A stretch of 40,749 nucleotides of DNA, from the IMG/VR virus record IMGVR_UViG_3300009184_000086, positions 1-40,749 of that record; one strand, 5' to 3'. The notes below the pieces were generated by a model. The model saw only the letters and a program-made list of their open reading frames with translations, was not told where the DNA came from and searched no databases. Of this stretch, positions 906 through 39,405 are shown piece after piece (within the stretch, counting starts at the first letter, position 1; every line of letters begins with the position of its first letter). A program made the translations under genes and the position numbers. This stretch comes from a virus.

Positions 906-1193
906 TCAAAACTTGCCTAATTGTTTGTAATAAAACACATGTCGCCCCTTGTTGCCCAGGGCGACCAGGTGGCGGTCGACGAAATCCTCTGCCACTGCCA
1001 TGGCCCCCTCCCTCGTGACTGAGAAATGGGTCTTACTTGTAAAAGTGTAAGCCACCCCCCACCCTGAGTCTCGTTTTTGGATCTCCGCAAACTCGGCAGT
1101 TAAGAAGGGGATGGCGCCGACTGATTTTAGGCAAAGCCGATTATTTGACCACCAAAGTTTGGCCGTCGTTTTTACTCTACGAAGTCTTGGCAT
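906..1193 (-). CDS. Hypothetical protein, end of leftward operon
   Basis: 95 aa, basic N-terminus (PRLRRVKTT), no membrane segment or motif I recognise. Its ATG lies inside the 3' end of the primase-helicase gene (22-base overlap), so it is probably translated by coupling. It is the last gene of the leftward operon before the gene-free region. A small DNA-associated accessory protein would fit, but nothing in the sequence proves it. Confidence 0.6.
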   Translation of the reverse strand: MPRLRRVKTTAKLWWSNNRLCLKSVGAIPFLTAEFAEIQKRDSGWGVAYTFTSKTHFSVTREGAMAVAEDFVDRHLVALGNKGRHVFYYKQLGKF

Positions 1194-3160
1194 GTGACGG
1201 TCTCGTGGTTGAGGGTGAATAGCTTTCCGCTGACCACCGGCGACTTAATAAAAGCCGCCTGAAGCATACGCCGGACCGTGGTAAGATGACGGCGGTTAAA
1301 CCGCTCGAGCGCGTGGACTTTGACGCACACCTCCGTGAAAGGTAATTTCGTATCATTCAGCATCATGCCGGTGAGAGCTTCAAGAGCTTCTCTTTGCTCT
1401 AAAGTAAGGCTTTCCTCCTTCACTTGCCGGCCATCGGCCAATCGCATCCTACCCTCTTCCCACACAAGAAGAATTTCCTCCCCCGCCTTGGCGTAGTTAG
1501 ACTTCGCCCGCTTCAACGACATGATAGTGTCGCTCTCCTCCCACCTCGACAGTGTCAAACGGTTGCGCACGGCGTTCTCCCAGGCCGTCGAGCCCGAGAG
1601 CATATCCCCACTGTTTTGGCCGGAGCGAGAGGGGTGAGCCAGTAAGAGGATAGTCAGCTCGTGTTTAATGGCCAACGAGCCAATGTGGGTCTTAATAAAC
1701 TTGTTGACCTGGTCTCGGACATTCTCATCCCCCATGTAAATGTCCGATAGAGTGTCTAAAATAAGAAGCTTTGGGCCTTTAGGAAGTTTTGAGAGCGCCT
1801 CTTCCAGCGGCTTACGAAAGGTACCCGGGACAACGTCTGTCTTGTGCTCATTGAGCCTGGCCAGGTCGTTAGACTCCCCTACCCGAGGCCAAAGGAATAT
1901 GGGCGTCTCGGTGGCTTCTAAAAAGGCGTATTCTGGGGCCTTCTGGATGGCGTTAATGCGCCGGTGCAGCTCGTCCCGGGTATCCTCACAGAAAACGGCT
2001 AGGACGGGCATAGGGCGCTCCACCGGCACGCCCATGAAGGGTGTACCAGTGGCTACCGAGTAAGCCAGCTGTAAGGCTATCAAGGACTTGCCTGAGCCTC
2101 CCTTGCCGTACATTGAAGAAATCTCACCCAGAGGCAGCCAGTCTTTGACGAGCCATTGCCGATTAGGCGGCTCGCCTGTAAAATCAGCAACGGGAATAGG
2201 GCCCTTCAAAGGTACAGGGTTTTGAGAAGCTGCTTGTGGCCCTGCCGGCTCAGCCACTGCTTGAGTTGGCGCGGGGTGGTCAAGAAGTCCAAAGTCTGCA
2301 AGCGCGTGGAGAGTTTGGCCTTCGGCCGTCTTGTAGCCAATCCCTGTGTTTTGGGGGTAGCGATAGGCATTCCTTAGTTTACTATCAAAATGTCTCTGGT
2401 CACCGTCGTTTGAGAAATCCCATGGCGGACTGCAGCGGGGATTGTAATGCTGTAGGACAAGCTCCTTTGCTTTGTCTTTAGAAATGCCGCGGTCTCGGAC
2501 CTCGTAAAATACCTGCAAGAGATGCTCACCGCCGGGACTGCCGCCTTCAATACACGGGGTAGCTGTGTAGCTGAGGTACTCGATGGCCCGGCCGATGTTC
2601 TCTGAGGTATCCAGCTGGCTAATAGAAGGCAGCTCAATAGCCTCGCGCTTCGGCTTCCCCAGCTCTTTTTTTATCCACTCTGGGACGGGCGAAGCCGCTG
2701 CCGTGCTAATCGGCTCGTAAGCTTTGCCGGCTAAGGTACTGTAGGGGGCCACGACGTACCCGCCTTTTCCCCGGGTATCCAAACCAGCGCCAAGCTGATC
2801 GTGGGAGTTGTTTAGCGACCCTGTGAAATAGTAATGCCTGCCGCCGGAGGGGGTGTTAACCGTGTAGGTGGGCGGTAAACCCCCGTGAACTTGTAAGAGT
2901 TCCTTTAGAGTTGCGTAGCCATCCGCGCCCTTGCAGTCAACATCAAGTACTGAGTGGCCAGAGAAGTGCACAGCGACGCCCCAGTTACAGTCGGGGTGAT
3001 CCGCCGCGTAGCTGTCAATCAGGTCGCGCGTCGATGCCTTGGCCCAGTCTTGCCAAGAGGATACAGCCGGCGTCTTGCCGTTGGTGATGAGTGGAAAGAC
3101 AGCGAAGCCAGCGGCTTTCATGAGCCGAGCGCCGTCCAGGGGTGTTTTTGCGTTTTTCAT
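1172..3160 (-). CDS. Primase-polymerase / RepA-type helicase fusion
   Basis: 662 aa. The N-terminus is a bifunctional primase/polymerase (AEP) domain: D73 and D75 in VLDVDC are the metal-binding pair, and S105-H109 (SGGRH) is the nucleotide-binding motif. The C-terminal half is a RecA-fold helicase of the RepA/AAA_25 type with Walker A GKGGSGKS at 352-359 and Walker B LLILD ending at D469. Such fusions prime and unwind phage and plasmid origins, and the last part is probably a small winged-helix tail. It lies next to the gene-free region 349-905, which fits an origin role there. It is the largest gene of the leftward operon. Confidence 0.9.
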   Translation of the reverse strand: MKNAKTPLDGARLMKAAGFAVFPLITNGKTPAVSSWQDWAKASTRDLIDSYAADHPDCNWGVAVHFSGHSVLDVDCKGADGYATLKELLQVHGGLPPTYTVNTPSGGRHYYFTGSLNNSHDQLGAGLDTRGKGGYVVAPYSTLAGKAYEPISTAAASPVPEWIKKELGKPKREAIELPSISQLDTSENIGRAIEYLSYTATPCIEGGSPGGEHLLQVFYEVRDRGISKDKAKELVLQHYNPRCSPPWDFSNDGDQRHFDSKLRNAYRYPQNTGIGYKTAEGQTLHALADFGLLDHPAPTQAVAEPAGPQAASQNPVPLKGPIPVADFTGEPPNRQWLVKDWLPLGEISSMYGKGGSGKSLIALQLAYSVATGTPFMGVPVERPMPVLAVFCEDTRDELHRRINAIQKAPEYAFLEATETPIFLWPRVGESNDLARLNEHKTDVVPGTFRKPLEEALSKLPKGPKLLILDTLSDIYMGDENVRDQVNKFIKTHIGSLAIKHELTILLLAHPSRSGQNSGDMLSGSTAWENAVRNRLTLSRWEESDTIMSLKRAKSNYAKAGEEILLVWEEGRMRLADGRQVKEESLTLEQREALEALTGMMLNDTKLPFTEVCVKVHALERFNRRHLTTVRRMLQAAFIKSPVVSGKLFTLNHETVTCQDFVE

Positions 3161-19854: not shown

Positions 19855-22800
19855 TTACTCTCTTGGCGGACGGATAAAATAATCCAGGAAGCTGACATCT
19901 TCGCCGTTGGCTTGATTAGCCATGGCGTCGATAGTAACGCTCAGCTGACTGGCGGGGACAGGAGCCAAAAGACTCGCCAAGGTAACGCCGGCTTTAAGAG
20001 TATTTTTGTCAAAGTTTTCCCGCTCGGTGTCTTTTATAACTAGCTGCCCGGCGCGTATAAGACTTTCAACAGGGGTCATTTGGTAATCTTGCCCGGTCAG
20101 CATAGCGCGGAAAACTCCGCCGGCGATGGGGATTAAACCGGTCCCTTGTAAAGCAACTATCTGAGCAATCTTTTTCCATTTCTCGTCGTCGTCGACGTCC
20201 GGAAAGTTTCGTTTAATGATTTGCTCCATTAAAGCAGGAGCAATCATCATATTTGCTACTCCCGCCAGTGCAGCAGGAAGCGCTACGATTCCGTCTCTTT
20301 TGACGTTATTCATGCGGCGCAGCAGACGATTGTACACCACGTTGGTGTAGGTTTGGAACATGGTGAATAGCCTGGCCGTGTCGTTTCCGCCGGCGATCAA
20401 CTGGCTTTGGGCGTATGATAAACCCGCGCCCTGTGTCTTTCTGACAACGCTATCGGCGTACTGAACTGCGTCTTCGTGGCTCATGCGCATTTCCTCTAGC
20501 GCTTTGCTGTAGCCACCGAGCCAGCTTGGTAGTGCGGTGGCAGCGTCAAAAAATCCGATCATTGCAAAAGCCGAATCTTCGTACGCAGATTTTACTTTTC
20601 CTGCATCATATTTGTTGTTTATTTCAGCAATGTTGCGGTCGACGTTTCTGCGCCGGGTTTTCATAAAATCGGAAACAGATTCTACCCAAGAGTGTAGCTC
20701 TCCGATTTTCGCAGGGTTTGCATAGGCTTTGGCTAACCCAAGTGTGGCCCATTTGGCGCCTAACTCATCCACAGTATTTGCATAGCCAACAATGTTTACA
20801 ACCGCCGACCCTACCTTGAGGCCCAGCTGAGCAAAGGTGGTGCGCTTGCGTATAAAGCGAGCCATGCCATCCGTTATAAAAGAGCCTGTAACATTGGTTC
20901 CGATAGACTCTTTAAGCCACCAATTTAGATAGTTGGCTTTTTCCGCCCCCATAGTTGACTCTAGGGCAGAGCGAACATTTTTGTCTTTTAAAAGTCTCGC
21001 AACATCCCGCACCGGCTCAAACAGATTTAAATCCGTGTAAACCTGTTTAAAATGTGAATCGAGGGGGTCCCAACCACGTAAACGAATTACTCGGTCGCCA
21101 GTGCCCACGCGAGCCATACGGTACCCATACTGCGTGGCGATAGCACCCGTGAATTGATTCATGGCTACGATGCCTGAGTCTTTTAAATTCTGCTCAACTG
21201 TGCCGTTTTTCATTTCGTACGCCAGGGGGAAGTACCACCCTTCGTACTCACCAAAAGGCGTCGAGACTTTGGTAGGCTGGACCATTTTCAACTTTAGTCC
21301 GGTCACACGCTGGTTGTGGGCTTGAATTCTTTCTTTGTCCTTTTCGAGCAAATTCCCAATTCTTTTTACAGTATCCCAATCTTTCTTGGTCATCGTAGCC
21401 AATACGCCGGCTACTTCTGCAGCGCTATATCTGCCATATAACGCGGCCTTATTGCCTTCGTTGCCCGTTTGCAAAGCCCAGTACAAGACGTCTCGTTTTG
21501 CTATTTTCGTGCCCAATTCTTTTATGTAAACATCTCGGGCCAGTTCTCCACTGCCGTAATCACTGAGAATTTTATTAAGCTCGCCCATCGTTTCAGTCAG
21601 CTCAAGCGTGGCTTTATTTACCGCTTTAGCAATAGGCTGAAATATAAATTTAGTTAGTGGGCCTACCTTATCTCCATCAAACTCTGTTAACAGGAACTCT
21701 ACCAGACGCAGTGTAGTAGCTATGCGCTCTCCGTACCTAGCGGCATCATAGAGTTTATTTGAGCTAGACACCGCTTTAGGCTCTGTGCGCTGCTTGTTAT
21801 TGACGCGCAGACTTTCTACTATTTCCTGAGCCTTTGTCTGCCTAGCAGATGCCACAGTAATGTCGTTGAGTTCTTTTAGCTGGCGGCCTACATGCGCAAT
21901 ACTTTCGACCGCGTTGTATACATCTTCAATTAGTCCAAGCTTTGCATCGTTAATATTGAGCTTAGTTCTTACTTCTGCCAAGGATTCAGGTATGATCGGG
22001 AAATTGTAATCCTCGTTTTGGCGGCGCTGCCACTCTGCCAGGGTGCCAATTTTAACGGCTCGCGAAGCTTCTGATTCATTTGAAAGGCTTACAAGAGAAA
22101 GAATTTCATCAATACGCGCCAGGTATTCCGGGTCACCCAAGCCGATTTTAGCGCGAGCGCTAGGGTTAGTGGCGTAGTCTTTTAGCTTTTCTACAAACCG
22201 ATCAACCTGTTTAAGACGAGACGTGGCTTCTTTGTAAGACAGGTAGAACTCTGCTTGTTTGCGACGAGCTTCTGCCGCTTGCGCGTACCGGCCTGAAGCA
22301 AAGTAAGACTGTGCCTGTTCCGCCGCTTTACGAGCATCACGGAAGTATTGTTCGGGGCTGAGAGTTCCGTAAACAGCTTCATCCATTCTCTGAGACACAA
22401 TCTCAGCTAGAATATCAAGAGGCGTGCCGGTACGACCAGAGAGCTTATCGAGCGCATCTATCTCTTTTCTTAATGTGGCAAATTTAGGGTCGTTTACTAA
22501 AGCATCACGTGCCGCAGCTTCAATGTTAGATTCAGCCAAGAAATCAGCGTATTTCTCCATCATGGCCTGCTCGACAAAACCTTGGACCATCTCTTCTTTC
22601 GAGACATTGGCCGTTAGCTCTTCGACCATTTTGTACTTGTTATCGTACTCAAACAGCTGAGCAACATCTTCCAACGGCACTCCGTCTTTTTTAACCCAAC
22701 GCGGGTTTAATTCATCAAGCTGCTTTTGAGTAATTACGCCATCAGCGACCATTTGCTCGAGCTCTTGGCGGTTGAGCCCTACTTTCAGCTGCTCCCCGAC

Positions 22801-25656
22801 TTCAATACGTTCGCCTGTCTTTTCGGAAACGTATTCAAATTTTCCTGTGCTTAGGAACGATCGAACAAGCGCCCAACGCATGTTGCCAACTTCTTTCTCG
22901 GCTTTAGCTTTTTCTTCGGCGCGGATTTTTCTGTACTCAGATATTTTGGCTTTTTCTACGCGAGCCTGCGCCTTTTGAAATAGCGTATCTTGGGCGGTTT
23001 CTAATGCCCGATTATGGGTGTTAATGTACTCAGCGTAGCCCTTGGCGGACATACCCGCTTCTTCCGGAGTTTTAAACAAAGGAGCCATCGGAGCGGCATC
23101 TTCGTTTGCATTAAGAACCTCGGATGCGCCCAGCAGTCGTCCAAATATTCCAGCCACCTCTCCAGTCTGTTGGCCGCCAGAGCGCACGTGCTGGTCGTAT
23201 AGCGCGCCTAACCAGCGGCCGTACTGCCTAAACGCCGGCTTTAGTGCTTTGTTTGGGGCCACGCCATCGGCAAGGAATTGCTCAAACGCAGCTGCCCATT
23301 TTTCCTGCTGGGCTTCTGTAAAAGGCTTACCACCTTCTGCGCCTACATATTTCAGAGCGGCTTCTCTTAAAGCTTTTACCTCAGGCGAAGCATTTTCTGT
23401 GCTGCCGATTTGATCTACAATTTGCAGAAACGCATGGCCACTTTCGTGTAAGAAAGTGGTGGGGTCAGCCGCAGAAAAAAGCGTAATGACGTTGCCGGCC
23501 GGGTCAAAATTTCCTCGGTCTGTGGTGCGTTCAGTTAACAGCGAAGAGTCGAAAGCACGTGTTATTGTAGGTTTATACTTCTGATAAAGCGCAAATGCGT
23601 CTTCGCCGGACAACTCAGCCAGGGTTGAGAAGAACGCGCCGTAAAGTTTTGACTGAGCTTTAGCTGTTGCCTTCTTGCTTTTTAATTTAACAAGATCAGC
23701 TTCTACGCCTTGCTCCACAAGAATGCGGCTTTTCTGTTGGGCAGTCAGGCTGTCAAATTTTTCTTGCGCCCGCTTGGTGACGTTGCCTTGTTCAGCGGCA
23801 ATCCGTGTATAAATGCTTTTGGCTTCAGCGCCAGTCAGGCCGCCGGCGGTCAGCGAGGTCTCTTCGATTAAAGCTTTTCTCGCATCAGCGCTTAAAAAAG
23901 AGAGATAGTTTTCCAGCGGAATGGAAAGGGTCTGACCGTTTTTGAGCTGCTCAGAGATACCGAGCTTTTCTACAGTCTCAGTCAGCTGTTCGTTTTTACC
24001 CGCAAAATACTTTATAAATGCTTCGGAGTCTATGAAAACATTTTTCTGTGCCTTAGGCAGCGCCGCTTGCTCAACGGCTTTTTGCGCAAAAGTCTGTCTA
24101 TCTCGGCCGGTTACAGTGGTTGCGTCAGCCGCCGAGTTTAAACTTTCCAGTCGGGCTCTATCTCTTTCGTATTTGGCGATTTGACCCAGCTGTCTGACAT
24201 TAGATGCACCACTTAGCACAAGCAGCGGACCCGCCGACGTTAACGCGCCGACGGCACCTGCTTGGCCAATACGAGAAAGTGCTTCCAGGGGAGTGGTGTC
24301 GGCAAACAGCTTCTTGTCGTCAAATGTTTTTGCCAACTCTTCGCCGACGATGTTGTTTAATTCAAAAGCCGCCATCAGCGCGCCTTGGCTGGCTACGGTA
24401 GTAGCGTAATTTTTACTCCATGCAAGAAGAGCTTTCTGAAAAGTCGGGCTTGTTTCTAAAGCTTTTTGTAAAACAGTTTTCGTAAATCCCTTAGAAAGGT
24501 TGCGGCCAACAGCGCCGGAAACAACCTCAGCCGCGCCTATACTTAAAAAGCCGCCGGCTGCCCCGGCTATTTTTGCCGCGATTCGAGCTGCTTGAGGGTC
24601 AATAGGCGTGCCATCTACTGATTTTATCTTCTTGAACTCTCTATACGCCTGCCCCATTGTCTGTTCGGCACCGACATCAAAAGCTCCTGTTCGCGAAGCT
24701 GCGCTTAAAGCAGTCGGCAAAGCGCGGGCTGCGCCGATCACTGCTCCTGCGGCACGCGCTTGTACAGGGCCGGGAGTAGAAATAAAGCCGCCAAGGGCGC
24801 CGGCGCCTACGCCCGCGGCGAACACCGGGGCTCCTCTAGCTGCAGCCATTCCTATCTGAGCCGCGCCGCCGGAGGTAAACGCGCCCGCAGCTTGTGAAAA
24901 ATTAAAAAGAGCGTTCTCTCCTTCGGGGATTAAGGACCTCTCGGTTTCTAAGCGAAGATACTCCTGCTCCTCTGCAGGAGTTAGCGGAACTTCGTTGGCG
25001 CGCTTGGCATCTAGCTCGTTCATACGAGTCTCGATGCCGCCAAGCTTAGTCAGCCCGCTTCCAAAACCATCAATGATAGAAGCAAAAGCGTTTAGATTTG
25101 TGACGTCCCGGCGTCCCACCCTGGCGTTGTAAGGATCAACCATCCACTCTCGGACGGCGGGATGCCACTCATTGATCCTATCTAACTTCATGCCGACACG
25201 CAGCGCGGCTAGCTCTGCGCTTCCGACGTCCGCTTCGACTGTCTCTTTATCTAGCCCTAAAACATTTGCGGTCTGATTTACCCGGGCCTGCTGTTCAGGC
25301 TGATATTCAGCCGCGGCCATCATGTTATTGCGAACTGTTTCGTTCTTAGCCTCGTCAGAAACACTTGTAGGGGCGTTGCCAGCGACAAGCTCACTTAGCC
25401 GAGTGTTAAGTGCAATCGTGTCTGCATAGCCTTGATAGATGTCTTTTATGTCATCGCTAGGAGCGATGTAGCGCTGAACCGGAGTAGTTTTGGGCGCTAC
25501 AAATTTATAATCAAGTCCGCCGGTCCCGTTTGGAGAGATGGTAGACATCTTCGGCTCAGCCGGTGCGTCGCTAATAACAGGAGCTTCGGTGGGCTGCGCG
25601 TAGGCTGGCGAAGTCCCGCCACTAAACTCCGTGTCCTGCCTTTGTATAGTTATCAT
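19855..25656 (-). CDS. Giant internal virion (DNA ejection) protein with metallopeptidase motif
   Basis: 1933 aa, the largest gene. Position after gp14- and gp15-like genes, length and alpha-helical, alanine-rich sequence point to the gp16-like ejection protein that enters the cell ahead of the DNA. Glycine/alanine-rich hydrophobic stretches at about 255-320 and 350-385 could insert in the membrane. A zinc-peptidase HExxH motif, HESGH at 737-741, lies inside PTTFLHESGHAFLQI. No lysozyme or transglycosylase motif is evident, unlike T7 gp16. Large polyvalent phage proteins share this peptidase pattern. Confidence 0.82.
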   Translation of the reverse strand: MITIQRQDTEFSGGTSPAYAQPTEAPVISDAPAEPKMSTISPNGTGGLDYKFVAPKTTPVQRYIAPSDDIKDIYQGYADTIALNTRLSELVAGNAPTSVSDEAKNETVRNNMMAAAEYQPEQQARVNQTANVLGLDKETVEADVGSAELAALRVGMKLDRINEWHPAVREWMVDPYNARVGRRDVTNLNAFASIIDGFGSGLTKLGGIETRMNELDAKRANEVPLTPAEEQEYLRLETERSLIPEGENALFNFSQAAGAFTSGGAAQIGMAAARGAPVFAAGVGAGALGGFISTPGPVQARAAGAVIGAARALPTALSAASRTGAFDVGAEQTMGQAYREFKKIKSVDGTPIDPQAARIAAKIAGAAGGFLSIGAAEVVSGAVGRNLSKGFTKTVLQKALETSPTFQKALLAWSKNYATTVASQGALMAAFELNNIVGEELAKTFDDKKLFADTTPLEALSRIGQAGAVGALTSAGPLLVLSGASNVRQLGQIAKYERDRARLESLNSAADATTVTGRDRQTFAQKAVEQAALPKAQKNVFIDSEAFIKYFAGKNEQLTETVEKLGISEQLKNGQTLSIPLENYLSFLSADARKALIEETSLTAGGLTGAEAKSIYTRIAAEQGNVTKRAQEKFDSLTAQQKSRILVEQGVEADLVKLKSKKATAKAQSKLYGAFFSTLAELSGEDAFALYQKYKPTITRAFDSSLLTERTTDRGNFDPAGNVITLFSAADPTTFLHESGHAFLQIVDQIGSTENASPEVKALREAALKYVGAEGGKPFTEAQQEKWAAAFEQFLADGVAPNKALKPAFRQYGRWLGALYDQHVRSGGQQTGEVAGIFGRLLGASEVLNANEDAAPMAPLFKTPEEAGMSAKGYAEYINTHNRALETAQDTLFQKAQARVEKAKISEYRKIRAEEKAKAEKEVGNMRWALVRSFLSTGKFEYVSEKTGERIEVGEQLKVGLNRQELEQMVADGVITQKQLDELNPRWVKKDGVPLEDVAQLFEYDNKYKMVEELTANVSKEEMVQGFVEQAMMEKYADFLAESNIEAAARDALVNDPKFATLRKEIDALDKLSGRTGTPLDILAEIVSQRMDEAVYGTLSPEQYFRDARKAAEQAQSYFASGRYAQAAEARRKQAEFYLSYKEATSRLKQVDRFVEKLKDYATNPSARAKIGLGDPEYLARIDEILSLVSLSNESEASRAVKIGTLAEWQRRQNEDYNFPIIPESLAEVRTKLNINDAKLGLIEDVYNAVESIAHVGRQLKELNDITVASARQTKAQEIVESLRVNNKQRTEPKAVSSSNKLYDAARYGERIATTLRLVEFLLTEFDGDKVGPLTKFIFQPIAKAVNKATLELTETMGELNKILSDYGSGELARDVYIKELGTKIAKRDVLYWALQTGNEGNKAALYGRYSAAEVAGVLATMTKKDWDTVKRIGNLLEKDKERIQAHNQRVTGLKLKMVQPTKVSTPFGEYEGWYFPLAYEMKNGTVEQNLKDSGIVAMNQFTGAIATQYGYRMARVGTGDRVIRLRGWDPLDSHFKQVYTDLNLFEPVRDVARLLKDKNVRSALESTMGAEKANYLNWWLKESIGTNVTGSFITDGMARFIRKRTTFAQLGLKVGSAVVNIVGYANTVDELGAKWATLGLAKAYANPAKIGELHSWVESVSDFMKTRRRNVDRNIAEINNKYDAGKVKSAYEDSAFAMIGFFDAATALPSWLGGYSKALEEMRMSHEDAVQYADSVVRKTQGAGLSYAQSQLIAGGNDTARLFTMFQTYTNVVYNRLLRRMNNVKRDGIVALPAALAGVANMMIAPALMEQIIKRNFPDVDDDEKWKKIAQIVALQGTGLIPIAGGVFRAMLTGQDYQMTPVESLIRAGQLVIKDTERENFDKNTLKAGVTLASLLAPVPASQLSVTIDAMANQANGEDVSFLDYFIRPPRE

Positions 25657-30500: not shown

Positions 30501-31120
30501 AGGCGCGATTGCGCAAGCGGACTGTCTTCGCTCGGCGCCTCGCTGCCTTCGTTTCCACTGCGAGCTGCCGCGCGATTGAAGGCGCGCAGATACATGTTAT
30601 AAAAATTTTGCTGCATCGAGATGCTGCCTTGCAGGGGCAGAGCCAACTCTGATGCCAAATACCAAGACAGGGCGTTTGCAAACAGTGGATCAAACAGCGT
30701 CGGGTTTGTTATCTTGGCGGTGTAAATTAAAGTGGCATTTGCCGTGTTAGAAAGCACAGACATGGCAGTCTTTGCCTTGTTAGAGACAACGTCAAAGTCG
30801 GGCTTTTCCAGAGGAAGTAGCGGCTCGCTAGACGAAAACAAAAGCGCGGCAGTTGCAGTGTCGGCTACGCGCAATGCCATCAGGCAATCGGGCGGGGCTT
30901 GGTACGCGTAAGAGTAGCCAGCGAACGAATCAGTTGTTAAAACTAATGCTTGCTCTGCGCGTGCAAAACGGAAATCAAATTCCCGCAGCATCATATCGCG
31001 GCACAGTGGGTAGAAAAGACGACAATGATCAGCCGTCTTGCCTACATCGTCAAGCGAATCTATGGGATTCGAGCCGATACGCAAGAGGGCTCTGTTACAA
31101 ATATCAGTCTCGGATGCCAT
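30497..31120 (-). CDS. Tail tubular protein A (gp11-like)
   Basis: 207 aa. The N-terminus ETDICNRALLRIGSNPIDSL and the following LFYPLCRDMMLREFDFRFAR are the signature of gp11-like tail tube/gatekeeper proteins. It joins the portal and nozzle. It is directly upstream of tail tube B. Confidence 0.9.
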   Translation of the reverse strand: MASETDICNRALLRIGSNPIDSLDDVGKTADHCRLFYPLCRDMMLREFDFRFARAEQALVLTTDSFAGYSYAYQAPPDCLMALRVADTATAALLFSSSEPLLPLEKPDFDVVSNKAKTAMSVLSNTANATLIYTAKITNPTLFDPLFANALSWYLASELALPLQGSISMQQNFYNMYLRAFNRAAARSGNEGSEAPSEDSPLAQSRL

Positions 31121-31168
31121 TATAAAATTGTCGGCATTGTTACGGGCGCCGGACCCGTCCCAAAACCC

Positions 31169-31231
31169 CCTGCGGTTTTACCCACAGGAGGCGTTCAGGA
31201 GGAGGGACAGAACTTCTCTAATTCAGAGAAG
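31169..31231 (-). terminator. Two hairpins between the capsid and tail genes
   Basis: On the minus strand a 7-bp stem (CTTCTCT/AGAGAAG, 31231-31213) stands right after the cement gene. A second stem (CCTGTGG/CCGCAGG, 31188-31169) follows, ending in GGGTTTTGGG. The tail side of a capsid cluster is where T7 has its late terminator Tphi. Neither hairpin has a long U-run, so they would reduce rather than end transcription, raising capsid over tail protein. Confidence 0.5.
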
Positions 31232-31235
31232 AAGA

Positions 31236-31658
31236 TTAGACGGGCTGGTTACCAGCTACAGGCTGCCAAGCTTGGCGGTCCATAACAAAACCCGAGCGAA
31301 TTGCACCTGCAGTGTAGGTTCCGGTAATTGCGTAACTAAAACGCAAGAAACGGAGCGTACCAGCGGGAACAACAGGCAGGTAAAGCTGAGCACCAAGGGT
31401 CAGAGCGGCAGTAGCAAAGGTCACCGTCCACAGCGCTACCGGTGAGGTAAACGCGGCGTCAGTGGCCGTTTGCAGGGTAATCGCAACCGAGGTACCGCCC
31501 GCAAAAGCGGTGGTAACAGCCAGGAAGCAATTAATGTCCATACCAATACCTGCATCTTCAGCAGCGCCGGTATCATAGATATCGGTGCTTACGATGGTGC
31601 CGGTGGTAAGGGCCTGCGGGTTAACTCCTGTTAAGAGGGTTTGACGGTCAAGAAACAT
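31236..31658 (-). CDS. Capsid cement protein (Bbp16-like)
   Basis: 140 aa. Beta-rich, with the pattern ASTxIYDTGAAEDAGIG, then LQTATDAAFTSP, LYLPVVPAGTLRFLRFSYAI and TAGAIRSGFV as in the Bbp16 family of head decoration proteins from BPP-1-type phages. It is downstream of the capsid gene. Small trimeric cement proteins of this family stabilise the mature head. Confidence 0.82.
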   Translation of the reverse strand: MFLDRQTLLTGVNPQALTTGTIVSTDIYDTGAAEDAGIGMDINCFLAVTTAFAGGTSVAITLQTATDAAFTSPVALWTVTFATAALTLGAQLYLPVVPAGTLRFLRFSYAITGTYTAGAIRSGFVMDRQAWQPVAGNQPV

Positions 31659-31686
31659 AGTATTTTATAGTCTTTCTTGTTTAGGG

Positions 31687-32682
31687 TTAGCTGATAGTGG
31701 CTTCGTTGATGCGCAAGGCGTCCGAGCGACGAACAGGAATTTCGTCAAACGAGAGAACCTTTTTGCCAGCAACCATGTCCATTGTCAGAGTTGAAGCGGC
31801 CACCTTGTTCATGATTTGGCGGCGCAGGAAAGAACGCAGAATACCAGGTACGTAGAATACGGGACGACCCATGCTCAGAGAAGGAACCTTCTCAATAGCT
31901 TGAGTCATCACGTCAATTAGGTCAGCACCCGAAGCAGCGTTCTTAGTCAGCGCAGGTACGTCAATGTTGGCTATACGCACAACATAGCGCCAGTCACGCA
32001 AGGACAAACCGACATTCCACTTATAGTGGGTGCGGTATCCCTGGAAACGGCCACCAGCCGAGTCAATGATTGTCTGCTCGCCGAGGTCCTGCGACTTCAG
32101 TCCGCCTACGCTACCCTTAGGATAGATACCATGGACAGTGTTGGGTCCCCAGACAACCAGCCAAGCCGAACAGTTGTTCGATCCCGAGCCGCCGCCGAGG
32201 ATGATGTTGTTACCGTTATCGGCGCCCGACTTCGTGGAATAGCGAGGAGCCAATCCCAGGAACTTTTCAGGGTCAATACCAGTGTTACCGTAAAAAAGAA
32301 CGTTGGCATACTCTTGGTTCATCGCCTCAAGGAACGCGGCGTCTTCCGACAAGCGGAACTCAGCTACGTTACCATTTAGTTCTGCCAAGTCTTTGTCCAC
32401 TTCGGCATAAGCTTCTAGCATGCCGCAGGTGTCGTCAACTTGAACGGTGGTGGATTTAGACGGCTGTACGCCGTAGTTTAGCAAGCGCCACGCTACCGTG
32501 GGGAGACCGGAGCGAACCGTGGTGCGATGACCAGTGGGAAGATTTCCTTCCACAAACAGCTGGTCGGCCAACACCTCATTTGTTCTATTGAGGATGTCGA
32601 CTATTTTAGCGATTTTGCCATCGGGCTCCATACGACGCACTGCGTCTTCAAGAGTGAGGGCGGTTGTACCTAGTGTTGCCAT
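31687..32682 (-). CDS. Major capsid protein
   Basis: 331 aa. It follows the BPP-1 type HK97-fold capsid proteins: ATLGTTALTLEDAVRRMEPDG at the start, LADQLFVEGNLPTGHRTTVR, a VQVDDTCGMLEAYAEVDKDL spine helix, and CSAWLVVWGPNTVHGIYPKG in the A domain. It sits between scaffold and cement genes, as expected. It is one of the best conserved products in the window. Confidence 0.92.
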   Translation of the reverse strand: MATLGTTALTLEDAVRRMEPDGKIAKIVDILNRTNEVLADQLFVEGNLPTGHRTTVRSGLPTVAWRLLNYGVQPSKSTTVQVDDTCGMLEAYAEVDKDLAELNGNVAEFRLSEDAAFLEAMNQEYANVLFYGNTGIDPEKFLGLAPRYSTKSGADNGNNIILGGGSGSNNCSAWLVVWGPNTVHGIYPKGSVGGLKSQDLGEQTIIDSAGGRFQGYRTHYKWNVGLSLRDWRYVVRIANIDVPALTKNAASGADLIDVMTQAIEKVPSLSMGRPVFYVPGILRSFLRRQIMNKVAASTLTMDMVAGKKVLSFDEIPVRRSDALRINEATIS

Positions 32683-32695
32683 ATTTTATATGTGT

Positions 32696-33379
32696 TTATT
32701 TGCCGTCATAGATGATCTCAGACGCAGGGCGAGTAGAACGTTTCGCAGCTGCCCCGTCGCCGGAAACAGTGGTGTCTTCGCTCATTGCCTGACCTATGCG
32801 GGCAAAAGTTTTAATCAGTCCTGGATGGCTACCCCACCCAGTCTGTGAAATTACTTGTTTAAGAGAAGGATCTGCATACTTCTCAAGGCCACGATGGGCC
32901 ATTTGTAGGGTCTTCTGCAGGTTGGCGCCACCGAAATCTTTGTCGGCGGTGATCTCTTGCTTCCACGTAGTGATCTGCGCGGCTTGCGCTTCTGCTTGTT
33001 TAGACATGATCGTTTGCGCAAGGCCGGAGGCCATGTCAACAAACTTTTGAGCTTTATCCTGCGGCAGGTTATACTCTTTGGCAGTCTTCATGAAATCGCC
33101 CATGATCTTTTCGTCCGCATTAAAACCTTCAGGAAGCTTGAACGATTCATATTTCTCAGGAGCGTTTGTTTTAGCAGCGTCAAGAGCTTTCTGTTTTTCT
33201 AGCTCAAGCTTTTGCTCGGGAGTTAGATTAGTCTCGTCTTTTTTGGATGTGCCATCTGGCGCCGGCTTAGCGGCCCCAGCAGGAGCCTTGGCGGCTTCTG
33301 CGATGAGACTAAGATTTTCAGCTGCGGGCGCTGCCTCAGCGGGCGTGGTTGTATTTACTGGGGGTGTTTCTTCAGCCAT
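32696..33379 (-). CDS. Scaffolding protein
   Basis: 227 aa. The N-terminal 60 residues are rich in A, P and E and probably disordered. Then ESFKLPEGFNADEKIMGDF and an acidic/helical middle, and a C-terminal part WGSHPGLIKTFARIGQAM. This pattern and the position upstream of the capsid gene match BPP-1-type scaffolds. GGAGG precedes the ATG, one of the strongest ribosome sites in the late operon, as expected for an abundant assembly protein. Confidence 0.85.
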   Translation of the reverse strand: MAEETPPVNTTTPAEAAPAAENLSLIAEAAKAPAGAAKPAPDGTSKKDETNLTPEQKLELEKQKALDAAKTNAPEKYESFKLPEGFNADEKIMGDFMKTAKEYNLPQDKAQKFVDMASGLAQTIMSKQAEAQAAQITTWKQEITADKDFGGANLQKTLQMAHRGLEKYADPSLKQVISQTGWGSHPGLIKTFARIGQAMSEDTTVSGDGAAAKRSTRPASEIIYDGK

Positions 33380-33432
33380 AATTCCTCCGATGAGCGCGAT
33401 TTTAACACGGAGAAAAACGCCCGCAATGCCAG

Positions 33433-33729
33433 CTACTGGCTTTTCTCAACAGGATATACCGCATCTCGTGCAAGCAGTGGAGCGGCTTCAAAGGCGTCAG
33501 AATAAAATTGCAAACCTAAATTTCTCCGTCCTTCTCTGAACTCAAGGCTTGCTCCAGCCATAATAGAGCCGTCAAATATTTTTGACATTTCTATTAACCG
33601 CCGAAATATACGAACGCCTTGCGGGCTGGATAAAAGCCAGCGCATATCTTCAAGCTCCTGCTTTCGTTCGTGCTTTTGCAATAGCTTGTGTTCTTTTTCT
33701 TCTTCAACTGTAAGTCTTGCTTTGTCCAT
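33433..33729 (-). CDS. Bbp19-like phage protein
   Basis: 98 aa. Residues about 28-90 follow the Bbp19 family: DMRWLLSSPQGVRIFRRLIE, then an EFREGRRNLGLQFYSDAFEA segment. These short helical proteins occur between the portal and scaffold genes of BPP-1-type phages; function unknown, probably head assembly. A lysine-rich N-terminal coil precedes the domain. Confidence 0.82.
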   Translation of the reverse strand: MDKARLTVEEEKEHKLLQKHERKQELEDMRWLLSSPQGVRIFRRLIEMSKIFDGSIMAGASLEFREGRRNLGLQFYSDAFEAAPLLARDAVYPVEKSQ

Positions 33730-33730
33730 A

Positions 33731-34309
33731 TTAAATCATTTCTCTGACATCTACCCACGTGCTATCTATCCACATCTTTGCCCATTCACCGTTTTTAGGG
33801 TTTTTGCCGGGGAGCCTAAGGGTAGTCGAGCTATAAAAAGGCCCAACGTTGGCTCGCTGAATAACGCCGGGGCGCACAGAAAAGTTGTAGCCTTCGTTCA
33901 GTCCCGTAACGTAAGCAAACGCATCATCTTCAGTTTTTGGCGTTTCAAAAATAATCCACAGGTGAAAACTTCCGTATGAGGTAGATTTTTCTACAAAAGC
34001 CTCGTGGCCGGCCGATGCCGCCAAAGATAAAACCAAAGTTTCGTTTAGCCCCAAAAGCGCGGTGTCGTTAACTCTGCCATCGATGTCAAAGCCGACCCAA
34101 CGGCAGAATCCGGCGCCATTGATAGCAGTAACGGCCAACGTCTCTGCGCCGTTGCAGTGCGCGTCGATTATATCTTCGCTATACTCCTCGGGATAATAAT
34201 GCTTAATCGGAGAAGAAGCGCCGCGCCAAGGCGCTGCTTTTCGGCGCATCAGCGTATCGCGGAAACCAATCGGGCATATCTTCTCAGAAATAAAATCTTT
34301 TAAGGTCAT
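33731..34309 (-). CDS. AEP primase-like (TOTE-type) protein in head module
   Basis: 192 aa. The order of motifs is that of archaeo-eukaryotic primase (AEP) domains of the TOTE type: GFDID with D75 and D77, then STSYGSFHLW with S111 and H116, and LRLPGKN (164-170) with R165. This would be the catalytic core for making primers, though the domain is short and the C-terminus is truncated compared with classic primases. It lies amid head genes, coupled by ATGA to the collar-domain gene. It differs from the AEP domain at 1172-3160. Confidence 0.7.
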   Translation of the reverse strand: MTLKDFISEKICPIGFRDTLMRRKAAPWRGASSPIKHYYPEEYSEDIIDAHCNGAETLAVTAINGAGFCRWVGFDIDGRVNDTALLGLNETLVLSLAASAGHEAFVEKSTSYGSFHLWIIFETPKTEDDAFAYVTGLNEGYNFSVRPGVIQRANVGPFYSSTTLRLPGKNPKNGEWAKMWIDSTWVDVREMI

Positions 34310-34830
34310 GTTTTTATAATGTAGTTGACGACCGCAAACGGCTGCATGTTATTGTGCGCGGTACCTGTTCCTGTCACACCGGTAATTCCTAGAGCTGGAT
34401 CAATATTGGCTACCACAACACTTCCTGCTGCTGTTGCCACTTCAATGTACGCATCGGGCTCAGGAGCAGTGTGTGCGTGAGGCGGCAGTTCCGGGATGGC
34501 CAGGGCATGGACTTCAGCACCGCCGCTTTCGGCAAGATTATGCTCGGCGTTTCGGCCCCCAGATAAAAGCCCGGGGCTCTCTCCTATTGCCACGCGTCCG
34601 CGTAAGTCAGGAAGATTAAAAGTAGTTGAACCATCTCCCACTCCCCAAGCCGTCCCAATGGCGCTAAAAAGGGCCGCGTAAGTAGAACGACTGACTGCCG
34701 CGCCATCACAAAGAAGATAGCCTGTAGGGGCCGCCGACGCTGCCCACATGACTAAGGCACCAGAGGGTAACCCCGATACCGCAGGAGCCTGAGGCAAAAA
34801 GCGAACATTATTTGGGGAACGATACGCCAT
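34306..34830 (-). CDS. Phage tail collar domain protein
   Basis: 174 aa from the ATG at 34830, one base after the preceding stop; an ATG at 34848 would lie inside that gene. Residues about 31-70 (WAASAAPTGYLLCDGAAVSR through WGVGDGSTTFNLPDLRGRV) are the tail collar domain. It carries an ELPPHAHT loop and ends VVNYIIKT. Collar-domain proteins cap fibres, and here one is encoded beside the portal rather than with the tail fibres. Confidence 0.85.
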   Translation of the reverse strand: MAYRSPNNVRFLPQAPAVSGLPSGALVMWAASAAPTGYLLCDGAAVSRSTYAALFSAIGTAWGVGDGSTTFNLPDLRGRVAIGESPGLLSGGRNAEHNLAESGGAEVHALAIPELPPHAHTAPEPDAYIEVATAAGSVVVANIDPALGITGVTGTGTAHNNMQPFAVVNYIIKT

Positions 34831-34831
34831 A

Positions 34832-35140
34832 TTATTCGTGCATCTCAAACGTACAGGTTACAGCGCCGTTTGTGCGAGCGGATACTCTAACGCGAACTTC
34901 AAGGAAAGCCCCCCACCACGCAATCAGCTCGTTACCTGCGGCAGTGTAGGTGGCTTGGTCAACTGTGTAAATATTACCGAAAGCGTCTTTACTCTCGATT
35001 ACCATTGTCATGTTGACTGTGCCGGTGAAAAGGTAGCCAACTTTAAACCACGTTTTGTCGGCACAGTTATACCACGGGCTAGATACGAGCGAAGTAGCCG
35101 CAGAAAACGGAACATCCTGCACATGGCAGGTTTTACTCAT
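34832..35140 (-). CDS. Hypothetical structural protein
   Basis: 102 aa, beta-rich, no membrane segment, with a YTAAGNELIAWWGAFLEVRV core. Three cysteines. It overlaps the portal gene end by ATGA and stands one base before the collar-domain gene. A small head- or fibre-decorating protein is likely from its place, but no family is recognised. Confidence 0.55.
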   Translation of the reverse strand: MSKTCHVQDVPFSAATSLVSSPWYNCADKTWFKVGYLFTGTVNMTMVIESKDAFGNIYTVDQATYTAAGNELIAWWGAFLEVRVRVSARTNGAVTCTFEMHE

Positions 35141-36825
35141 TGCGCAGGAGCCGCCAGTCTATCGGCCAGGGGTTGACCATTAATCGTCGTTTCTGAAGCT
35201 GCTTTGGCGGCCTGGGCGGCTTGGTTAAGCGCGGGCGCTGCTTGAGCGAGCTGCTGGGCTTGCTGTTGCACCTGACGTCCCTGGCGAAGCTTTTGAACCG
35301 CTTCGTCCGAACGGACAATTTGGGGAGCAATGCCATTCATCTCACTGTACACATCTATCACCTGATCAAAGTCAAGTTTATCCAGCGCTTCAGGATTTGC
35401 TTGAGCCAATTGCAAGGTGAAGCCCACAGTCTTTTCAATGGCGGTAGTGCCAACCATTTTCTGCGCTTGAGCCAACAACGAGGTGTACTGAACCTTTATC
35501 TGCGTGCCGTTTTGTAACTCCTCGGGAATTTCGGGCAGCATTCCCATGTTCTCAATTACGTCATACACCCGATCAATAATCGCATCGAGGAACTCACTTT
35601 GTAACCCCTCGATCACGGGACCTAGCATCATGAGCTTCTCCTCATACTTCTGCGCGGCCTCCGTGGCAGTCATCGTGCGCTCGTTATTTAAAACAGCCAA
35701 GAATAAATTATTAGAAAATGCCGACCGAATGCGACTTTCAACCACTTCCATTGAGGACACAAACTCCCGCAACTGCGGTTGAATCTGATAAAGCGGAGTG
35801 GCTCCTGTGGCCCCAGCCATTTCATCAACATACGTAATTCCGCCGGGGATCAACGACACGCCGCCGTTTTTCTTTACCGCCGGCGAAGCTTTGATAGGAG
35901 GGTCAACCATTTTACCTAAAGCTTTCAGCTTTATCTTCTCCATCTCATTTAGCTGCTTCACGTCGGGCAAGGCATCCATCGCAGGTGAATTGCCATAGAC
36001 ATCATTCCCCGTGACGTCCCAGCGGCCAGTCACAAACGGTTTCACACGATACCCGAGTGAAGTTAAAATCTCGTAGTCAGAGTCCATGCACGATACGCCA
36101 TAGTAGGCAGAAGTATACCTCATTTGACCAAGCTTCGACGGATCAAAATCCATGTTTGGCTCGATGACGTGCATGACATCAAAACTTGTAAAAGGCTGAT
36201 TGTCTTTGAGCGCATTGGCCACGCGAGTCGGCAGCTTTTCTTTACCAAACTTTTGCCGCATTTGCTTGGCTGACATTGCCAGCGGCCGGTACATCTCATC
36301 AATAATATTTTTGTGATTTGACGACAGCCAATACTCACCAACCGTCAAAGGTCTAAAATGAACAACCGTGTCAAAATCTTCATCAATGAGCATGGTTGCA
36401 GTGCCAAATCGAACCATCTCAAGGTAGCACTGGTGCACCGCTGTATAGAAATTCGACCGGGCAAACACCTGCATCATCATCTCTCGAACCCGGTAAAGCC
36501 AGTCTTTAACCGGCCCGTACTCCATAAGTGCCGTGTCTGAAAGCGTCAGCGTAAACCAAGGCGATGACGGCGAGTTTAACCCACCTTGTAACCCCGCTCC
36601 AGCCACACGAATGGCCTCAAGCGCAGTTCCGTTAAAAATCTTTTGGTGCTTTTTGTCCCCGCGGTTATCTTCCCATTTAGGATTGTAAGAGGTCAAATAC
36701 CGTCCCTTTCGAGGGGCCATGTAATCCACAATCTCTTTGTAATGCGGAGCCCAAGACTCTCTAAAGACATCTTCCAATGCTTTGGCTTTCTTACGCCAAC
36801 TCTCAACTTTATTGTCGACCATCAT
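35137..36825 (-). CDS. Portal (head-to-tail connector) protein
   Basis: 562 aa. Recognised by the podovirus connector pattern: SWAPHYKEIVDYMAPRKGRY (about 24-43), GTALEAIRVAGAGLQGGLNSP, VGEYWLSSNHKNIIDE and RIRSAFSNNLFLAV. The last 45 residues are glutamine/alanine-rich. Dodecamers form the DNA gate of the head and bind the tail tube proteins. It lies between the terminase and scaffold genes in conserved order. Confidence 0.93.
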   Translation of the reverse strand: MMVDNKVESWRKKAKALEDVFRESWAPHYKEIVDYMAPRKGRYLTSYNPKWEDNRGDKKHQKIFNGTALEAIRVAGAGLQGGLNSPSSPWFTLTLSDTALMEYGPVKDWLYRVREMMMQVFARSNFYTAVHQCYLEMVRFGTATMLIDEDFDTVVHFRPLTVGEYWLSSNHKNIIDEMYRPLAMSAKQMRQKFGKEKLPTRVANALKDNQPFTSFDVMHVIEPNMDFDPSKLGQMRYTSAYYGVSCMDSDYEILTSLGYRVKPFVTGRWDVTGNDVYGNSPAMDALPDVKQLNEMEKIKLKALGKMVDPPIKASPAVKKNGGVSLIPGGITYVDEMAGATGATPLYQIQPQLREFVSSMEVVESRIRSAFSNNLFLAVLNNERTMTATEAAQKYEEKLMMLGPVIEGLQSEFLDAIIDRVYDVIENMGMLPEIPEELQNGTQIKVQYTSLLAQAQKMVGTTAIEKTVGFTLQLAQANPEALDKLDFDQVIDVYSEMNGIAPQIVRSDEAVQKLRQGRQVQQQAQQLAQAAPALNQAAQAAKAASETTINGQPLADRLAAPAQ

Positions 36826-37013
36826 GAACCAAGAAGAGTTTTCTTTTGAACCGGGGCCACACTCACGTCACCAAACGGAGATGTCGCAATATTGGGATTA
36901 TTGTTAGCGGCCTTTAGCTGTAATAGCTGCTGGTCCGCATTCAAAGGAGTGGCTTTTGCCGTTTGTATGGGCGGAGCCGACTCCATCTTCCCAATGTTTG
37001 GTGTATTGCACAT
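36822..37013 (-). CDS. Hypothetical protein between terminase and portal
   Basis: 63 aa, polar, disordered-looking, with MCNTPNIGKMESAPP start. Short proteins with an MCxTP N-terminus and proline-rich start occur at this place in related podoviruses. ATGA overlap with the portal gene and two bases from the terminase stop support it. Role unknown. Confidence 0.6.
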   Translation of the reverse strand: MCNTPNIGKMESAPPIQTAKATPLNADQQLLQLKAANNNPNIATSPFGDVSVAPVQKKTLLGS

Positions 37014-37015
37014 AG

Positions 37016-38779
37016 TTAGGCGAAGATGTCGTAGTCCGTCACCGCCACGTTAGGACGGTTCTGGTACTCTTCTATCTCGGTCTTTTTTACCACGGGAGCG
37101 GCAAACGTCAATGCCAGCGCGTCGCCTAAATCCGGAGATTTGAGTCCACGTTTTTTCATCATCTTCTTTTGTTCAAGCATCTTTTGCCCGGACGAAAGAA
37201 AACTATAATTAGGTCCGGTTAAATCATCAAGTAGGGCTTGATCGTCGGGGATGACTCCGCCTTCCTCTAGCCACTTTTTAATACCAAACCACATTTCTGT
37301 TCGCTTGTATCGGTACTCAGTAACGCTTGATGCTGAACCGAAGTTAACCGGTATCGGTGCCAAATGAAGATGGCGCAGATAATCTATAACACCGGTTCCC
37401 ATACCTACGTCAATAAACACAGCGTCAGCGCTCTCACTCTTCCAGTACTGCGCCACGAGATTGCCAAGATCAATATTGCCAATGTTACGCCCTTCCCAGA
37501 GCTTCCATGAGGCCAATCCTTGGCGCTTGAATATTACAGAGCGGTCATCGCCCTCCCAGGCCACGTCAACACCGAGTATGACCGGCTGGAAGATGTAGGC
37601 GCCTTGCCCTAACTTACGCTTGCATGCCGCCGATACAAGTTCGCGGGGAATAAGCTGGCTAATCGACGCACGAGGGAATTCGCCAAGGACGCGAACTCGG
37701 TACTCATCGCTGTCTTTGCCATATTCCCCTTCCCATTCGGCGATACTGGATTTCGAGACGAGCGGGCTTTGCTCTGCGTTGAGGCAGAAAGTCTTCCACA
37801 AGTCAGCGTTACGGTGGTGCGTGTTGTAAGCGTAACCGCTTGTAGCAGTCGGGTTACCGCACAACATCACACGGGCTCCATCGGTTGACAGCGCTCCGCG
37901 GGCTACCTCGAACACACTATCGGCCACACCGAAGGCCTCGTCGACTAGAAAGAGCATGTGCTTTGCGTGAAGCCCTTGTAGGGCGTCGGGCTGCTCTGGT
38001 CTCGCGGTACGCGCGGTTAAGAACTGGGAAGATTCCTTTCCCACTACTTCCATGCGCATGTTCGACACCACTAGTTGTGATTTTATCCAAGGGTTAGCGC
38101 TGTTGATCAATCGGCCAATTTCGGCCATCAATACGTCTCGAAGCTGGTTTGCTGAAGGTGCGGTGGCGGCAGTCTTAGAATCCGTAAAGAGCAAAGTGTG
38201 CCAAATAGCAACGATAGCCTCCACGGTGGTTTTACCTACGCCGTGGCCGGCGCGTACGGACACTTTGGCGTTAGGCTTCACGATCTCTCGCAGGATTTCT
38301 TCTTGCTGGGGTGTTGGTTTAATATTCAAGGCGGCATGGGCAAACGCCACGATGTCGGTGCGCCAGTGACGAATTTTCTGAAGTAGCTTCTGTTTTACTT
38401 CTTCTGGCGATGCAGAAAGGGAACTTTCGTTTGTAGCCTCGCCAGGCGAATCTTCCAAGGAGTCTTGTTTCCTCTTATCCCCTGTTTGCGCGATGGAACC
38501 GTTTTGGGTGGTGGGTTCGGAAGCACCCCCCTCTTGCAAGGGGGCGGGGGTATCGGCGGCAAGGGACGCGGCATAGGCTCGCATAAGTTTATCGGCGTTA
38601 CGCTGCAACGCTTTATTGCCTGGAAAGTTCTTACTTAGAGCAGCGTCCCGCATATACACCTTTGCGGCGTTGTAGGGTATCCGGGTACTTTTGTAAGGTT
38701 TTACAATATTTTTACCATTTAAACGAGCTTTAAGCCCTTTTGATTTGTAGCCCTTGGGGTTGGGTAGGTCATTTTCCAT
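37016..38779 (-). CDS. Terminase large subunit with N-terminal extension
   Basis: 587 aa from the ATG at 38779, one base after the small subunit stop. A TTG at 38809 is possible but less likely. Walker A is RAGHGVGKTT (K183), Walker B LFLVDEAFG (D280, E281), and the nuclease part starts VILGVDVAWEGDD with a second acidic AVFIDVGMGTG segment. It cuts and packs DNA. Residues 1-125 form a lysine-rich, then acidic low-complexity extension that ordinary terminases lack. Confidence 0.93.
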   Translation of the reverse strand: MENDLPNPKGYKSKGLKARLNGKNIVKPYKSTRIPYNAAKVYMRDAALSKNFPGNKALQRNADKLMRAYAASLAADTPAPLQEGGASEPTTQNGSIAQTGDKRKQDSLEDSPGEATNESSLSASPEEVKQKLLQKIRHWRTDIVAFAHAALNIKPTPQQEEILREIVKPNAKVSVRAGHGVGKTTVEAIVAIWHTLLFTDSKTAATAPSANQLRDVLMAEIGRLINSANPWIKSQLVVSNMRMEVVGKESSQFLTARTARPEQPDALQGLHAKHMLFLVDEAFGVADSVFEVARGALSTDGARVMLCGNPTATSGYAYNTHHRNADLWKTFCLNAEQSPLVSKSSIAEWEGEYGKDSDEYRVRVLGEFPRASISQLIPRELVSAACKRKLGQGAYIFQPVILGVDVAWEGDDRSVIFKRQGLASWKLWEGRNIGNIDLGNLVAQYWKSESADAVFIDVGMGTGVIDYLRHLHLAPIPVNFGSASSVTEYRYKRTEMWFGIKKWLEEGGVIPDDQALLDDLTGPNYSFLSSGQKMLEQKKMMKKRGLKSPDLGDALALTFAAPVVKKTEIEEYQNRPNVAVTDYDIFA

Positions 38780-38780
38780 G

Positions 38781-39251
38781 CTATTTCTCGCTGTTCTGTT
38801 GTTTGTCAAAGTCTAATAGGGATGCAATACCCAACATTACCGCGCCGCTATGCTCTACCTTTTCGGTGAATGCGGCGATGGATTTGCCGTAAAGCTCGCT
38901 AGCCTTTAGCCGCTCGCTGAAGGCGGGTCCGGTTATGTGGTGCTCTTTACCGTCCGGCATCGTGACAGTGTCAACGCTTGGCGCTGTTAAGATGTTTTGC
39001 CAGAAGCTTTGTAGGTCTTCTTTCGTGTAAAGTTTTTTCTTGACATCGAGCGGATTTTGATTAAGGGCGGCAATCACTCGCGGCTCTTTGACAATGCGGG
39101 CGACAGTTTGCGCGGTCACTGCAACGCCGTCACGCTTCATCGCCTTTACAGTTTGTTTTATATCGCCTGTGTAGTAAGCCAGGATAGCGGCGCGTAGTTG
39201 CTTTGATTCAGCACCGTTAACCGTTTTTATTTTTATGCGTTCTTGAGACAT
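38781..39251 (-). CDS. Terminase small subunit
   Basis: 156 aa from the ATG at 39251. Helical, with an HTH-like region at about 20-55 (LAYYTGDIKQTVKAMKR then TAQTVARIVKE) and a downstream SERLKASELYGKSIAAF helix typical of small terminases. It binds the packaging site. The TTG at 39287 (12 codons earlier) coincides with the promoter's -35 box and is not used here. First gene of the late operon. Confidence 0.85.
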   Translation of the reverse strand: MSQERIKIKTVNGAESKQLRAAILAYYTGDIKQTVKAMKRDGVAVTAQTVARIVKEPRVIAALNQNPLDVKKKLYTKEDLQSFWQNILTAPSVDTVTMPDGKEHHITGPAFSERLKASELYGKSIAAFTEKVEHSGAVMLGIASLLDFDKQQNSEK

Positions 39252-39259
39252 ATTGGGCA

Positions 39260-39287
39260 GTAATAGCATAAAAAAATCGCTTGTCAA
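39260..39287 (-). promoter_or_regulatory. Late leftward promoter, near-leaderless
   Basis: Minus strand: perfect TTGACA (39287-39282), 16-bp spacer, TATTAC (39265-39260, four of six). The start site is expected near 39253, only a couple of bases before the terminase ATG at 39251. The late mRNA would thus have almost no leader. No Shine-Dalgarno is needed or seen. Confidence 0.65.
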
Positions 39288-39306
39288 GGCCGCGGACTAA
39301 TTTCCA

Positions 39307-39324
39307 GTCTCAATTAGTTGAGAC
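39307..39324. promoter_or_regulatory. 18-bp operator-like palindrome
   Basis: GTCTCAATTAGTTGAGAC: two perfect 7-bp arms around TTAG, in the 179-base space between the divergent late and right-end operons. It lies 20 bp upstream of the late promoter's -35. A dimeric regulator would fit; none is encoded next to it. Confidence 0.6.
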
Positions 39325-39376
39325 ACAGGGCAATATATTACTAAAATAAATAATTGAAAATAAAAGACGAATCTAC

Positions 39377-39405
39377 TTTACTTTTGTATAAGAACGCCGT
39401 ATTGT
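39377..39405 (+). promoter_or_regulatory. Weak rightward promoter candidate
   Basis: TTTACT (39377-39382), 17 bp, TATTGT (39400-39405): four of six matches in each box. The predicted start, near 39412, precedes the gene at 39431 by about 19 bases. Weak, so activation via the palindrome at 39307-39324 is possible. Confidence 0.35.

Follow-up and report, generated by a model that had tools for sequence, protein, structure and literature searches.

An open reading frame lying among the virion genes of a BPP-1-like podovirus encodes a relative of the archaeo-eukaryotic primases (AEP, or Prim-Pol), in which the acidic residue of the third catalytic motif has been lost. The frame encodes 192 aa from an ATG start and occupies positions 33731–34309 of the minus strand, exactly where the preliminary description had placed it. 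The window, which is the whole stretch of DNA analysed, is the virus record IMGVR_UViG_3300009184_000086, a single record of 40,749 bases. Judged from its sequence the protein is a true AEP relative by homology that lacks one of the features defining a catalytic AEP, and it is filed here as an AEP-fold relative and not as a primase. We tentatively favour its interpretation as a non-catalytic protein, a nucleotide- or DNA-binding pseudo-enzyme carried as cargo in the slot between the portal and Bbp19 genes, and hold this at somewhat less than even probability.

Gene order and the portal–Bbp19 slot

The virus is a BPP-1-like podovirus, whose major capsid protein shares 66% identity with Bbp17 of Bordetella phage BPP-1 and whose gene order from terminase to tail is broadly that of BPP-1. 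Starting from the large terminase subunit TerL (37016–38809), the minus strand continues with the portal or head–tail connector (35137–36825, PF12236), a 102-aa frame (34832–35140) for which relatives were sought and none found, the tail collar protein (34306–34848, PF07484; the likelier start is the ATG at 34830), the AEP-fold frame, a Bbp19-like protein (33433–33729; phrog_528, with a PF25181 match slightly below cut-off), a scaffold/protease-type protein (32696–33379, phrog_458) and the major capsid protein (31687–32682, PF20911). The frame thus has the same orientation as the portal, scaffold and capsid genes, and its earlier assignment to the head genes holds. The ATG of the 102-aa frame overlaps the portal stop, the ATG of the AEP-fold frame and the collar stop overlap as ATGA, and the Bbp19 ATG lies 1 nt past the AEP-fold stop. 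The run from portal to Bbp19 is compact and probably co-translated. Since its start overlaps the collar stop, the AEP-fold protein would probably be made late, by translational coupling to the collar gene, a timing suggested by its position. Its codon usage is ordinary. No convincing promoter- or terminator-like site belonging clearly to the frame, as expected of a moron-like unit, was found within 31000–39400, where there are 14 promoter-like sites (7.6 expected by shuffling) and nine terminator-like sites (10.2 expected). The window has no match in Rfam or tRNA scans, and the repeats near the slot are all short and imperfect. Elsewhere, the largest frame of the window (1933 aa, 19855–25656) lies in the tail region, and a 172-aa frame at 5886–6404 matches the phage DNA methyltransferase family phrog_799 over positions 208–362 of 458 only; it is possibly a truncated or split methyltransferase.

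The portal–Bbp19 slot of BPP-1-like phages is variable. In 68 other loci having both genes (after removal, from 70 rows, of two that represent the window) the distance from portal to scaffold ranges from 106 to 2377 bp and is at least 999 bp in 12 of them; the corresponding distance in the window is about 1758 bp. By eye, several frames within the longer slots resemble fibres, spikes or small virion proteins. Two slot frames of 662 and 536 aa (L046:3914–5902 and L057:4287–5897) have a common N-terminus, MSNYKTGESADLFDF, after which they diverge, a pattern resembling interchangeable spikes mounted on a shared anchor. In the window the cargo of the slot would comprise the AEP-fold frame together with the 102-aa frame and the tail collar gene. 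PF22548, the Pfam domain of the AEP-fold frame, occurs in none of 80 capsid-related IMG/VR records (49 + 31), a count of limited weight because many of these are short contigs.

A second AEP is located in the early region (1172–3160, minus strand), where a Prim-Pol domain of a different Pfam family, PF09250, is fused to AAA_25; such a fusion had been proposed in the preliminary description. This protein is probably the replication primase-helicase that performs the priming of the phage, and the window also encodes a family A polymerase. Among four named BPP-1-like phages, PF22548 is found in BcepC6B, in the early polymerase/primase gp46 (NC_005887.1:39697–42363) with motif III intact, and the family is therefore represented among the replication genes of BPP-1-like phages. 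The AEP type of the early primase varies among these phages, being PF22548 in BcepC6B and PF09250 with AAA_25 in the window.

Homology and predicted fold

The Pfam AEP-TOTE profile PF22548 matches residues 35–136 of the protein with 31.8 bits, above the curated cut-off of 27. A profile of 102 AEPs, from which the protein itself was left out, scores it at 34.8 bits (E = 6.7e-10), compared with a top score of 7.4 bits for 1000 shuffled copies. Run against the stop-to-stop frames of at least 120 aa in the window, the same profile matches this frame alone, a second row being the frame again, read from stop to stop. The AEP relationship proposed earlier is upheld by these scores.

No close relative was found in phage records, IMG/VR or the genome_contigs scan. 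When phage records were searched by tblastn with the protein, no match appeared even at E 10; in plasmids the rows were all weak (E 2 to 9), and two TOTE helicase proteins among them served as seeds. Scanning viral_contigs for patterns, whether those of the protein, A1 and A3 or a DNA pattern, returned no relative, nor did the scan of genome_contigs. The protein gave a clear match in one of 369 genomes, three further rows at E 0.006–0.007 being discarded as chance, and the profile A3, built from two rows, had no match among 398 genomes, a set that did not include any genome known to match. The single match (L196, on a bacterial contig of genome G301) is a protein of 403 aa and is the best single-sequence relative, with 27% identity and E 1.9e-7. 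It shares GxxHLWI and RLPG with the phage protein, but keeps the motif III acid (ETFPKR). In its gene (L196:1369–2580) AEP-TOTE PF22548 is followed by a HAD phosphatase-like part with a weak NCBIfam EcbF-BcbF match, and it adjoins a frame that we take to be argininosuccinate lyase-like. The alignment used for the motifs contains 149 relatives, comprising 94 loci, the L196 protein, seven seeds, L093 and 46 loci kept by a near-complete filter from up to 56. There are 139 unique sequences, falling into 34 clusters at 70% identity and seven at 40%, with 80 of the rows closely related to a single phage primase.

AlphaFold2, given a 15-row alignment, produced a model of moderate confidence (pLDDT 60, pTM 0.61); a single-sequence model (pLDDT 33) was uninformative and was discarded. 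Because the alignment guides the model, the fold and the sequence evidence are not independent lines. Both Foldseek and VIA-align place the Prim-Pol domain of CAPP first, and superposition upon 7nqd gives Z 12.2 with an rmsd of 3.5 over 167 aligned residues. LigD polymerase domains follow at Z about 10–11 (11.1 in one case), while the yeast and human primases give Z about 8–9 (8.4–8.9). Helicobacter pylori HP0184 (2atz), which bears no evident primase name, has Z 10.7. The comparison with primase structures proposed at the outset thus favours an AEP fold, and both homology and fold are those of the AEP/Prim-Pol superfamily, with its alpha/beta and RRM-like modules.

The CAPP Prim-Pol of Marinitoga sp. 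1137 (7nqd, 7nqe, 7nqf and 7p9j) resembles the phage protein in fold, in motifs I and II and in the profile link. CAPP is CRISPR-linked, whereas the phage frame sits in a virion gene cluster. Those window proteins that were scanned, a part of the frames, have no Cas match, and the weak PrimPol match given by PADLOC is the AEP-fold frame itself. TOTE conflict systems combine an AEP with a superfamily II helicase (and nuclease), either in one fused protein or from genes that occur together. The phage protein shares the TOTE AEP domain PF22548 above cut-off, but TOTE-type frames are mostly about 680–1060 aa, and the two that were read fully have a helicase-type part, whereas the phage frame is AEP only and its neighbours are virion proteins rather than a helicase. 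A literature search for TOTE with primase returned nothing, a statement confined to that search. PF22548 is also present in proteins of phage DSL-LC04, Dinoroseobacter phage R5C, Gordonia phage Luker (gene 5) and BcepC6B (gp46), but these four are 304–888 aa in length with motif III intact. In the records viewed, phage AEP-TOTE primases have a helicase gene or other replication genes nearby, or carry the name polymerase/primase. Full-length CAPP has a further C-terminal domain, according to a review (PMC10345425), whereas the phage protein corresponds to the core only.

The catalytic motifs

That review lists the AEP motifs as I (hhhDhD/E), II (sxH) and III (hD/E), and adds that catalysis is ablated when a residue of motif I or III is mutated (PMC10345425). 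Motif I of the phage protein is formed by D75 and D77, in columns that are acidic in all 149 relatives, and motif II by S114-F-H116, where 148 of the 149 have histidine. In all 149 aligned relatives the motif III acid is located 3–4 residues before an invariant proline. Here the phage protein reads F143-S144-V-R-P147; the proline is kept, and S144 or F143 takes the place of the acid. There is neither aspartate nor glutamate anywhere in residues 140–174. Besides P147 the conserved G156, L166 and P167 are kept, while the FPxQ pattern is degraded, with R146 and V149 replacing the F and Q common among relatives. Of the three AEP motifs originally recognized, therefore, D75, D77 and H116 align with motifs I and II, whereas the acid of the third is absent. 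The second motif had been written SxxxSFH, which is not the literal sequence; the stretch is S109-T-S-Y-G-S114-F-H116.

The third catalytic motif had been taken to be RLPG. This reading is ruled out, since RLPG aligns with a later LP pair and the acid precedes the proline that matches P147. By position and pattern R165-L166 best fits the ‘Rh’ motif IV, the arginine of which is thought to aid nucleotide binding and is essential in PolpTN2, as described by Kazlauskas et al. 2018 (PMC5862659). Using P157 as the motif III proline does not restore the motif, as no acid precedes it either. A sequencing or frame error was rejected on the sole ground that the other two frames are without an FPKQ-like stretch.

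For CAPP, D177 and D179 are given as active-site residues (PMC8211822), and E260 as holding, with metal A, the 2′-hydroxyl of the first nucleotide (PMC10345425). In our alignment D177 corresponds to chain residue 68, the first D of DID, and E260 to chain residue 151. By this mapping E260, the motif III acid of CAPP, is the E of VEIFPKQ, where the phage protein has no acid. Around motif III the phage protein aligns with about 25% identity, and pLDDT is <50 at residues 145–151 and 153–162; because this region is so weakly aligned and modelled another acid, such as E139, could replace the missing one. No relative sharing the loss was found.

Possible roles of the protein

With one of the three normally needed metal-binding acids lost, the protein is probably not a working primase. 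The suggestion in the preliminary description of an inactive fold put to another use fits better than a working primase, although the structural role it envisaged for such a fold would be no more than a candidate. In the interpretation that we favour, the protein would be a lone Prim-Pol core of the AEP-TOTE or CRISPR-associated kind, devoid of any ancillary domain, that keeps motifs I and II and the motif IV-like arginine but not the motif III acid. It would make no primers, which would probably be left to the early Prim-Pol/AAA protein, but might still bind nucleotide or DNA outside replication. Confidence in this is limited by the weak modelling around motif III, by the failure to find a close relative that would reveal the conserved residues, and by the possibility of a compensating acid. 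A more specific version, in which a dead Prim-Pol made late binds nucleotide or primer–template DNA as a decoy or cap, being packaged or acting at packaging, is highly speculative, and the least probable of the readings considered here.

Prim-Pols are usually described alongside replication, repair or CRISPR genes. The location of the frame, between the collar, Bbp19 and scaffold genes in a slot that in relatives holds frames resembling fibres or spikes by eye, is consistent with a virion or morphogenesis protein in which the AEP fold is reused structurally, for example at the head or a collar fibre. The retained DxD and SxH would be needless in a purely structural protein, and PF22548 is unmatched in the records of relatives, so that such a role is improbable. 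The same retention, together with R165-L166, could instead indicate an unusual but active Prim-Pol, in which another acid such as E139 replaces that of motif III and which fills gaps or extends ends at packaging or after injection. LigD-type Prim-Pol domains fill gaps, and they are a good structural match to the model. RepE/RepS AEPs, a described family from mobile elements, resemble the phage protein in that the motif III acid is not conserved; as described, Gln replaces the Asp, and most members have an acid close by (PMC5862659). Loss of the acid is consequently no proof of inactivity. Nevertheless the absence of any acid from residues 140–174, the degraded FPxQ and the missing accessory domain argue against activity, as does the fact that the phage already encodes another Prim-Pol and a family A polymerase, and we regard an active enzyme as unlikely.

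The frame might alternatively be a decaying passenger that arrived with the collar cargo and whose function has gone. The loss of both motif III and FPxQ, the variability of the slot and the failure to find a relative in phage records, IMG/VR or the genome_contigs scan would all agree with this. Against it, the frame is intact and tightly coupled to both neighbours, its motifs I and II are fully kept and its codon usage is ordinary. Decay is doubtful in its own right, but is nearly as likely as a non-catalytic binding protein because no relative with the same motif III loss was found.

If the protein is merely decaying cargo, it illustrates on a small scale how genes move through the portal–Bbp19 slot of BPP-1-like phages. 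Should the decoy or cap reading be true, the phage would possess a pseudo-primase that acts outside replication, for example by blocking host Prim-Pols of the TOTE or CAPP type or by protecting DNA ends. A core-only Prim-Pol without motif III, placed among virion genes, would provide a natural experiment on the reuse of the fold without catalysis.
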